From the NCBI GenBank assembly GCA_902547295.1, contig CACCNJ010000003.1, forward strand, positions 1-64,000: a stretch of DNA of 64,000 nucleotides, given 5' to 3'. This document shows, piece by piece, positions 55,679 through 58,299 of this stretch. The notes under the pieces were generated by a model that searched no databases, had not been told where the DNA came from, and saw nothing but the letters and a program-made list of their open reading frames with translations. The position numbers and the translations under genes were made by a program. Numbering within the stretch: the stretch's first letter is position 1; the number at the start of each line of letters is the position of its first letter. Source of the stretch: an uncultured SAR86 cluster bacterium. Its GTDB lineage: Bacteria; Pseudomonadota; Gammaproteobacteria; Magnimaribacterales; D2472.

Positions 55679-55706
55679 GTTGAAAAACTTAATAATGGCT
55701 ATAAAT
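55679..55706 (+). promoter_or_regulatory. Possible heat-shock promoter of hsp20
   Basis: GTTGAAA (55679-55685) matches the sigma-32 -35 box CTTGAAA at 6 of 7, and TATAAAT (55700-55706) follows after 14 bp. The downstream box is more sigma-70-like than sigma-32-like. A start near 55712 would give a leader of about 90 nt that contains the thermometer. Confidence 0.4.
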
Positions 55707-55711
55707 ATTAG

Positions 55712-55801
55712 TTGATGAAGATGCCATAATGGATCTTCGCGTTAACAAGTGTATGCTTTTTTAGATACACATTTATAAAGTCGCTTTTAAGGAGGACTAT
55801 T
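55712..55801 (+). promoter_or_regulatory. ROSE-like RNA thermometer in the hsp20 leader
   Basis: Three hairpins are predicted in order. First, GAAGAT/ATCTTC with an inner CCA/TGG (55717-55738). Second, GTGTAT/ATACAC (55749-55770). Third, a hairpin from 55779 to 55798 in which AGTC pairs with GACT and the TCGCT motif (55781-55785) lies opposite the Shine-Dalgarno GGAGGA (55791-55796). U(U/C)GCU opposite the SD is the conserved mark of ROSE thermometers, which precede small heat-shock genes. The 5' end is an estimate. Confidence 0.65.
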
Positions 55802-56254
55802 ATGATACTTAACTTTACAGACCCATTTTTCACAACACGTGTACTAGGGTTCGAACCTTTGTTTGATAGATTGCAAAGACTATCTGAGTCTAACGATAGA
55901 TCATCAAGCTATCCACCATATAACATTAGCAAAGATGGTAATTATTTTGCCATTGAGATTGCTGTTGCTGGATTGTCAAAAGATGATATCCAGATAGAGC
56001 TCGCTGAAGGAGTTCTTTCAGTAAGCTACGATGGGCCAACTACTGAAGTTGTTAATGGTGAAAATAAGGTTGTTTATCAAGGAATTGCTCAAAGAGCATT
56101 TAAACAGCAATTTACCCTTTCTGAGGATGTTGTTGTTCAAGGCGCAGAAATAGTTAATGGTTTATTAACTATTAGTCTTGAGAAAATTATTCCTGATGAA
56201 AAGAAACCTAGGATGATTGAGATCAAATCACCAAAAAGAATCTCAAGTAAATAA
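55802..56254 (+). CDS. ibpA: Small heat-shock protein Hsp20, IbpA-like
   Basis: A 150-residue alpha-crystallin-domain chaperone that holds denatured proteins in a refoldable state. IbpA-type features: GFEPLFDRLQ near the N-terminus, YPPYNISKDG leading into the alpha-crystallin domain (about 38-130), and the AFKQQFTLSEDV strand. An I-x-I-like IEIKS motif lies near the C-terminus. A strong Shine-Dalgarno GGAGG is 6 nt before ATG. Translation is likely held back at low temperature by the leader. Confidence 0.95.
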   Translation: MILNFTDPFFTTRVLGFEPLFDRLQRLSESNDRSSSYPPYNISKDGNYFAIEIAVAGLSKDDIQIELAEGVLSVSYDGPTTEVVNGENKVVYQGIAQRAFKQQFTLSEDVVVQGAEIVNGLLTISLEKIIPDEKKPRMIEIKSPKRISSK

Positions 56255-56270
56255 CTTTTATAATGTGAAA

Positions 56271-56291
56271 TGGGGTGCATAATGCACCCCA
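56271..56291 (+). terminator. GC-rich hairpin after hsp20, no clear U-tract
   Basis: TGGGGTGCA (56271-56279) and TGCACCCCA (56283-56291) pair perfectly around a 3-base loop. It lies 17 bp past the hsp20 stop and 29 bp before the dsbD start. No run of T follows, so it may terminate weakly, protect the hsp20 mRNA end, or affect dsbD expression. Confidence 0.5.
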
Positions 56292-56319
56292 AATGTTAAA
56301 TAGGATAAAATTATATTTA

Positions 56320-58299
56320 ATGAAATTTCTTAAGATATCCTTTCTATTATTATTTTGCTTAGCAATAAATGCGGTGACTGTTGATACCGGTCATGCAAAT
56401 GTCTCGTTGGTAAAGTTTGAAAATGTAGACGAAGCTCAAAGCCAAACTCTAATTGGTATTAGAATGGATATGCAAGAGAATTGGCATACCTACTGGAAAA
56501 ATCCTGGTGACTCAGGAGGCCCAATAAAAGTTAAATGGTCTCATGACGACAGTATTTCAATAAGTGAGTTATATTGGCCAACCCCAACTTTAATCCCATA
56601 TGAGCCACTTATGACATATGGATATAAGAATTTTGTAATTTTTCCTTTTGAAATTAACAATTCCAGCAATGTGAATTCACATATTGAGGCAAATATTGAT
56701 TTTTTAATATGTGATGATATTTGTGTCCCAGAAAAAGCATTTATCAAAACAAATCTTAATGAAATTAAAAACGATGCTTCGCTGTATAATTGGTTTTTAA
56801 AAGTTCCATCTCAGACACTTCCTGTGAAGGCATCAGTTGATAGTGAGTTTATAGATATAAGATTTTCTTGGCCTTTTGATGTTAGTTCTGCGATATTTTT
56901 TATCGACAATCAAGATATCGCTGAACATGCTGCAGATCAAAATCTTATTAAAGAAGAAAATAATTATCTGCTTAAGATTAAAAAATTAGATGATGTTAAA
57001 TCTCTTGAATATTTATCAGGAGTATTATCTATTAACGATAACGAGAGTTTTATAATTGATGCTGAAATTGAAAATGCTACTCAAAACTCTCTAAATATTT
57101 CATTTTTACAAGCTTTAATTTTTGCGTTTGTAGGTGGCTTAATTTTAAATTTAATGCCATGCGTTTTTCCAATAATTTCATTAAAAGTTCTAAGTTTTGT
57201 TTCAATGAGCAACCAATCTCCATCAAAAATTAGAGCTCATGCCTTATCATTTTGCGCTGGAGTGATTATTTCATTTCTGCTTATTGGATTTGCAATGATT
57301 TTTCTTAAACAAGCTGGTTTATATTTGGGCTGGGGATTTCAATTACAGTCACCGCTTATAGTTGGATTACTCAGTTTGTTAATGTTTGTAATTGGTTTAG
57401 TGCTTCTAAGCGATATAAATATAGGTTCATCATTAACTAGACTTGGAGGTATAGGAACCAGCGGAAGTTTAGTTAGCTCCTTTTCTACAGGTATTTTAGC
57501 TGTTATTGTTGCCTCACCATGCACAGCACCATTTATGGGCGCAGCACTTGGTTATGCATTAATTCAACCCTCTGGAATTACATTACCAGTCTTTTCTGCA
57601 CTAGGTCTAGGTTTTGCTTTTCCTTATTTTGTATTATCAGCCTCACCAAGTTTAATAAATTATCTACCGAAACCGGGAAATTGGATGGTTGCTTTGAAAG
57701 AATTTTTTGCATTTCCCATGTTTGCCACATCCATATGGTTGATATGGGTGTTTAGCGTTCAAACATCTTCTAACGAAGTGATTTTTCTTTTAATGACGAT
57801 TCTAATGATTTCGTTGTTAATATGGATTTCTACAAAGCTTAATAAATCAAGCTATAGATTTGTTATTTTTGTTATTGCAGCTTTTGTAATTTTCTTTCAA
57901 TTCAGGGATATTCCTTCAAACGAAATACAATCTACAAATGCCTTAAAACTTGAAAGTTACGATTATGTTCAATGGAATAAAAATATAGAAAATGAATATA
58001 AAGACAAAAATCAAGCTTATTTAATTAATTTTACTGCTGCGTGGTGTATAACATGCCAAACAAATGACAAAATTGCCTTATCAAGACCAAATGTTAAAGA
58101 ATACATTTATGAAAATAACATCCAATATATTGTTGCTGATTGGACTAACAAAAATGATGAAATTCTAAAAACTCTTGAATCCTATGATAGAAATGGAGTT
58201 CCATTATATATTTTTTGGAAACCAGGAATGAGCGAGTCAAAAATTTTACCTGCAATTTTAACAGAGAAGATTTTGTTAGAAAGTTTCAACAACTCTTAA
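56320..58299 (+). CDS. Protein-disulfide reductase, DsbD/ScsB type
   Basis: This enzyme passes electrons from cytoplasmic thioredoxin to periplasmic thiol proteins. From ATG 56320 it is 659 residues; the longer frame from GTG 56275 starts inside the hairpin. Order: signal peptide; ScsB-like N-terminal domain with paired Cys (CDDICVP); eight-helix membrane part with NLMPCVFP and ASPCTAPFMGAALG; C-terminal thioredoxin domain with FTAAWCITCQ. The N-terminal domain is ScsB-like rather than the classical DsbD alpha. It could reduce the TlpA-like lipoprotein at 43633. Not operonic with hsp20 for certain. Confidence 0.9.
   Translation: MKFLKISFLLLFCLAINAVTVDTGHANVSLVKFENVDEAQSQTLIGIRMDMQENWHTYWKNPGDSGGPIKVKWSHDDSISISELYWPTPTLIPYEPLMTYGYKNFVIFPFEINNSSNVNSHIEANIDFLICDDICVPEKAFIKTNLNEIKNDASLYNWFLKVPSQTLPVKASVDSEFIDIRFSWPFDVSSAIFFIDNQDIAEHAADQNLIKEENNYLLKIKKLDDVKSLEYLSGVLSINDNESFIIDAEIENATQNSLNISFLQALIFAFVGGLILNLMPCVFPIISLKVLSFVSMSNQSPSKIRAHALSFCAGVIISFLLIGFAMIFLKQAGLYLGWGFQLQSPLIVGLLSLLMFVIGLVLLSDINIGSSLTRLGGIGTSGSLVSSFSTGILAVIVASPCTAPFMGAALGYALIQPSGITLPVFSALGLGFAFPYFVLSASPSLINYLPKPGNWMVALKEFFAFPMFATSIWLIWVFSVQTSSNEVIFLLMTILMISLLIWISTKLNKSSYRFVIFVIAAFVIFFQFRDIPSNEIQSTNALKLESYDYVQWNKNIENEYKDKNQAYLINFTAAWCITCQTNDKIALSRPNVKEYIYENNIQYIVADWTNKNDEILKTLESYDRNGVPLYIFWKPGMSESKILPAILTEKILLESFNNS

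Follow-up and report, generated by a model that had tools for sequence, protein, structure and literature searches.

The leader of a SAR86-cluster gene for a small heat-shock protein is very probably a ROSE-like RNA thermometer, that is, a 5' untranslated region in which a helix over the Shine-Dalgarno sequence would open on warming and let translation proceed. The leader is structured, conserved and covarying among relatives, and it is constantly linked to hsp20. It lies in the window analysed here, a stretch of 64,000 nucleotides from an incomplete 1.05 Mb genome whose closest named relatives belong to the SAR86 cluster, with HSP20 identities of up to 99%. The original prediction had supposed the DNA to come from an A+T-rich marine gammaproteobacterium.

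In the mechanism that we propose, a sigma-32-type promoter would make the hsp20 mRNA, and in the cool state the AGUC-(bulged G)-CU arm of the third hairpin would pair with AGGACU, hiding the 3' half of the Shine-Dalgarno sequence along with some of the initiation region. With its G bulged out, this helix would be weak enough to open gradually on warming, upon which ribosomes could start, while hairpins 1 and 2 would serve as conserved structured modules in front that help folding or bind a factor.

Architecture of the hsp20 leader

The gene itself (55802-56254, forward strand like all features below, with its ATG at 55802) encodes an IbpA-like HSP20 protein that scores 52.3 bits with PF00011, above the cut-off, and matches the IbpA model with E=2e-28, yet stays under the IbpA equivalog cut-off. 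A PF00011 search detected this single HSP20 copy in the 1.05 Mb assembly. Upstream, a sigma-32-like heat-shock promoter can be read from the sequence at 55680-55707, with a -35 element TTGAAA at 55680-55685, the element TATAAATA at 55700 downstream of it, and a -10 region GGCTATAAATA ending at 55707. A loose version of this pattern (TTGA[AT]-N13-18-YY..A) occurs in 73 of 80 SAR86 leaders, which is a raw count without a chance level, and rpoH is present in the genome with a score above its curated cut-off. Transcription is predicted to start at about 55712, which would give a leader of about 90 nt.

The minimum free energy (MFE) fold of 55712-55804 (-20.2 kcal/mol) contains three hairpins, each with a bulged G in its 5' arm. 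Hairpin 1 (55717-55738, GAAGAU[G]CC-auaau-GGAUCUUC, bulged G at 55723) and hairpin 2 (55749-55770, GUGUAU[G]CU-uuuuu-AGAUACAC, bulged G at 55755) precede hairpin 3 (55779-55798, AGUC[G]CU-uuuaagg-AGGACU, bulged G at 55783), the predicted thermosensing hairpin that holds the Shine-Dalgarno sequence. The latter, UAAGGAGGA, is read directly at 55788-55796 (position 55788 being U in the RNA) and includes GGAGGA at 55791-55796; according to the fold, the 3' part AGGA (55793-55796) is paired and the 5' part is left in the loop. Opposite stands UCGCU (55781-55785), likewise read directly, a ROSE-type anti-Shine-Dalgarno motif that is conserved as UYGCU in SAR86 and pairs with the AGGA around one bulged G. 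The original prediction of three successive hairpins, the last with UCGCU opposite the Shine-Dalgarno sequence, is thus borne out, and the coordinates that it gave for the element (55712-55801) are correct to within a few bases. Four of the 67 open reading frames of at least 100 amino acids in the window have U[UC]GCU at -32 to -8, and by eye only that of hsp20 faces a Shine-Dalgarno sequence. The fold energy by itself lends the structure modest support (z = -2.2, with 2 of 200 shuffles equally low).

Covariation and conservation of the hairpins

Unlike the fold energy, the evolutionary evidence for the leader structure is decisive. We aligned 29 leaders of the same genus without reference to structure, and separately a set of 29 leaders from other genera of the same family; counts were kept to these two alignments because a single alignment of all genera (A1) misplaces one arm of hairpin 1. 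Within the genus, 98.1% of cells are paired as named, a share that drops to 37-52% once the partners are shifted by 1-3 columns, and there are 47 double-sided compensatory cells as against 12.6 in shuffles. The other genera give much the same picture (97.0% of cells paired, 39 double-sided changes as against 9.9 in shuffles).

The bulk of this covariation sits in hairpins 1 and 2. Double-sided changes affect six of the eight pairs of hairpin 1 within the genus (99.6% of cells paired) and five of eight in the other genera (100% paired); for hairpin 2 they affect two of eight pairs in the genus and three of six in the other genera. Hairpin 3 hardly varies in the family, where a single A-U pair is turned into U-A and all members of the genus keep the pairs, but its arms change in concert from clade to clade: AGUC/GACU in the window's family and in family f4, ACUU/GAGU in families f2 and f3, and UAUU/GAUA, CAUU/GAUG and others in further gammaproteobacteria. 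Of distinct combinations, 92% form the first three pairs when each sequence keeps its own arms and 24% do so when arms are swapped, in a count that chose the register per sequence, which favours own arms, and that took hairpin 2 instead of the Shine-Dalgarno hairpin in seven leaders because the same UGCU/AG motif occurs there.

The families also differ in layout. The anti-Shine-Dalgarno arm pairs with the first AGGAG of AAGGAGGA in f2 and f3 and with the second AGGA in f1 and f4, a shift of the sensing helix on the Shine-Dalgarno sequence by three bases, and the Shine-Dalgarno hairpin is preceded by two hairpins in f1 and f3 and by one in f2 and f4.

Distribution and relationship to known ROSE elements

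A covariance model, R1, was built solely from genera other than that of the window. Searched against the 1.05 Mb genome, it has 55706-55804 as its sole significant match (E=3e-10); the next match in that genome (E=9) is attributable to chance. Of 203 genomes from the order, R1 matches 131 at E<=0.01, among them genomes of f2, f3 and f4, so that the ROSE-like element is likely to be order-wide in SAR86. Among 369 genomes spread over the class, it has five matches outside the order, all of them immediately upstream of HSP20 genes and none detected by the Rfam ROSE models. Three second matches of R1 in genus g9 (L142-L144) were dismissed as chance, lying antisense to the start of another gene at about 28 bits.

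The Rfam ROSE models RF00435, RF01832 and RF02523, which had been suggested as a check of the original prediction, give no match on the window leader even at E<=10, and RF02523 finds nothing above its cut-off in the whole genome. E. coli ibpA, as a positive control, scores 100 bits with RF01832 (ROSE_2). The hsp20 leader L128 from a related SAR86 family of the same order passes RF02523 (ROSE_3) with 44.1 bits against a cut-off of 43, and leaders L124 and L125 reach 30-31 bits. Since R1 also matches genomes of f2, f3 and f4, the window leader and L128 appear to form a single homologous set. The original prediction was to be given up if the leader had neither a ROSE covariance score nor covariation in hairpin 3 among relatives; only the score is absent and the arms of hairpin 3 covary across families, so that the prediction is not refuted, and the features of the leader, this covariation and the ROSE_3 score of L128 all support the proposed ROSE-like thermometer.

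The failed score is a detection limit and not a trait of the class, although it leaves the leader outside these Rfam entries as they stand. RF02523 exceeds its cut-off in none of 229 sampled gammaproteobacterial genomes, and UYGCU is found in the Shine-Dalgarno region of 23 of 27 inspected gammaproteobacterial hsp20 leaders, two of the four exceptions resembling wrongly called starts. The Rfam ROSE models therefore appear too narrow, and the families may need rebuilding. Most of the inspected gammaproteobacterial IbpA-type genes (L137-L141, L150-L177) carry a ROSE-like Shine-Dalgarno hairpin.

Judged by the features that define ROSE-like elements in PMC3669281 and PMC12857270, the leader is a 5' UTR with an IbpA-like small heat-shock gene (PF00011) directly downstream, has U(U/C)GCU imperfectly paired to the Shine-Dalgarno sequence in its 3'-proximal hairpin with a bulged or G.G-paired G, and contains three hairpins, all supported by covariation, where two to four are expected. 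ROSE-G elements, which lie upstream of ABC transporter genes, have a CUGCU whose bulged G faces another bulged G in the Shine-Dalgarno sequence (PMC12857270); we rejected this assignment for the window leader, whose motif is UCGCU/UUGCU and whose gene is hsp20.

The closest known system is ibpA of E. coli, a ROSE thermometer proven by experiment. Its leader (RF01832) and that of the window share a sigma-32-type promoter, three hairpins before an IbpA-type gene, a UCGCU motif that contains a bulged G and faces the Shine-Dalgarno sequence, and bulged Gs in the upstream hairpins too. The window leader differs in a sequence too distant for a ROSE_2 score, in its A+T-rich stems and in an anti-Shine-Dalgarno arm that pairs with the second AGGA of AAGGAGGA, and its genome has a single hsp20 found and no ibpB. 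The RF02523 model likewise consists of a GGAUGCC..GGGUCC hairpin with a bulged G followed by a Shine-Dalgarno hairpin with a bulged G (ACUcGCU in the model), but the window leader has one hairpin more and no score. Rhizobial ROSE elements (RF00435), such as ROSE1 of B. japonicum hspA, place UUGCU opposite the Shine-Dalgarno sequence and show bulged Gs in the model's first and last hairpins, whereas their hairpins are arranged differently and the best SAR86 score is 25.7 against a cut-off of 45. The short ROSE-like elements of Pseudomonas ibpA (PMC3669281) share the ROSE motif in the 3' hairpin, the sigma-32 promoter and a stable 5' hairpin; they comprise two hairpins in about 62 nt as against three in about 90 nt in the window, though two hairpins are also found in SAR86 families f2 and f4.

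SAR86 ranks among the most common uncultured bacterial groups of the surface ocean, and among open papers we found none that mentions it together with RNA thermometers. Its leader adds a candidate to a known kind of ROSE-like thermometer, one that Rfam misses, and points to an apparently order-wide heat-shock control in SAR86 that is mostly unseen by current Rfam models.

Repeated bulged-G hairpins and possible protein feedback

While the existence of the element will hardly surprise a specialist, the repetition of its bulged-G module is the more interesting lead. Hairpins 1 and 2 of the window (55717-55770) repeat the 5' bulged G of the sensing hairpin, and in plain MFE folds of 80 distinct SAR86 leaders G accounts for 169 of 196 single 5' bulges, usually as U[G]C or C[G]C. 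Two or three bulged-G hairpins occur in 63 of these 80 leaders, compared with even one in 2% of shuffled leaders, and at least one lies upstream of the Shine-Dalgarno hairpin in 68 of the 80 and in 14 of 27 leaders from other gammaproteobacteria. All three Rfam ROSE consensus structures have a bulged G in a 5' hairpin and in the Shine-Dalgarno hairpin. The upstream module was observed across leaders L092-L131, L137-L141 and L150-L177. We found no statement on the bulged G of upstream ROSE hairpins in the accessible literature, which did not extend to Nocker 2001 and Chowdhury 2006. The function of ROSE 5' hairpins is not fully understood (Krajewski et al., PMC3669281), and it is on this question that covarying upstream hairpins with a repeated bulged G bear.

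One reading of these hairpins is that the leader is chiefly a protein-binding operator, to which HSP20 binds in order to repress its own translation until it is titrated away by aggregated proteins, with temperature as a secondary effect. We consider it possible, if on balance doubtful, that such feedback exists at all. The IbpA proteins of E. coli, C. neteri and V. harveyi bind the 5' UTR and repress their own translation, and in E. coli this self-repression has an irreplaceable R93 and needs an aromatic residue at Y34 (PMC10474464). In our alignment, Y37 and R98 of the window HSP20 correspond to these residues, and both are conserved in 60 of 60 aligned sequences, where E. coli IbpB has Q and F; the upstream hairpins, moreover, covary strongly and repeat the bulged-G motif as a binding site would. 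However, the conservation of R93 and Y34 may have other causes, and most SAR86 proteins carry Q in place of both R97 and K98, which E. coli also requires, and have K where E. coli has E96.

These comparisons nonetheless make feedback by the protein on this RNA plausible; it would be compatible with a thermometer and could explain the retention of hairpins 1 and 2. A broader and rather improbable proposal, which we offer tentatively, is that ROSE leaders, instead of comprising a lone sensing hairpin and filler, are tandem arrays of a hairpin module with a 5' bulged G (the bulge lying two to four pairs below the loop) in lineage-variable copy number, and that the upstream copies are kept because HSP20 binds them via its conserved Arg and Tyr, such that one RNA would read both temperature and free chaperone. 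As a separate observation on the protein, the charge beside the RNA-binding arginine is shifted in most SAR86 proteins, with Lys at position 96 and Gln at 97 and 98, where E. coli IbpA has Arg and Lys (E. coli IbpA numbering).

Predicted temperature behavior

Nearest-neighbor folding of the window leader predicts a shallow opening, with an unpaired fraction of the Shine-Dalgarno sequence of 0.05 at 15 C and 0.19 at 40 C, while the same method gives a still shallower rise from 0.01 to 0.11 for E. coli ibpA; several relatives are predicted to have the first half of their Shine-Dalgarno sequence open regardless of temperature. In silico, the hairpin at 25 C gains 4 kcal/mol in stability once the bulged G is removed, an effect that agrees with the role of this base in ROSE elements according to published work (summarized in PMC9450479). 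Extrapolated melting points are 63 C for hairpin 3 of the window alone and a median of 68 C for its family, as compared with 69 C for E. coli ibpA and a median of 63 C for other gammaproteobacteria. We had considered a lowered melting point in SAR86, but no trend emerges from these values, and the method is too coarse for the purpose; the idea of a melting point tuned to a narrow marine temperature range finds no support in nearest-neighbor folding, itself a weak test.

The small and gradual opening, together with an extrapolated melting point of about 63 C that lies far above sea-surface temperatures, could also mean that the hairpins are real and conserved yet do not act as a thermometer at the temperatures of the organism, instead keeping translation low and constant or protecting the mRNA. 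We regard this as unlikely: the same calculation gives 69 C for the experimentally proven E. coli ibpA thermometer, which leaves the absolute values without weight, and the bulged G that weakens the helix is kept while the helix covaries around it.

That the leader is instead a fourU-type thermometer, in which UUUU at 55785-55788 pairs with the Shine-Dalgarno sequence, is very improbable even though this run follows the UCGC and forms two U.G pairs with GG in the MFE fold, since relatives do not conserve it, having UUA, AUA or a loop of AAGG only, but do keep AGUC-G-CU. Assignment to the fourU class, with four consecutive U paired to the Shine-Dalgarno sequence, was rejected because the pairing runs via AGUC-G-CU. 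Chance hairpins in an A+T-rich leader, which a fold-energy z of only -2.2 would allow, are vanishingly improbable given compensatory changes far above those in shuffles and slid pairings and the R1 match at E=3e-10.

Sequence downstream of hsp20

Just past the hsp20 stop codon lies an inverted repeat, GGGGTGCATAATGCACCCC (56272-56290), which may be a terminator that lacks a T run. At its 5' end, the longest reading frame of the following gene (56275-58299, starting with GTG) overlaps with this repeat; the true start of that gene is probably further on, at an ATG near 56320.
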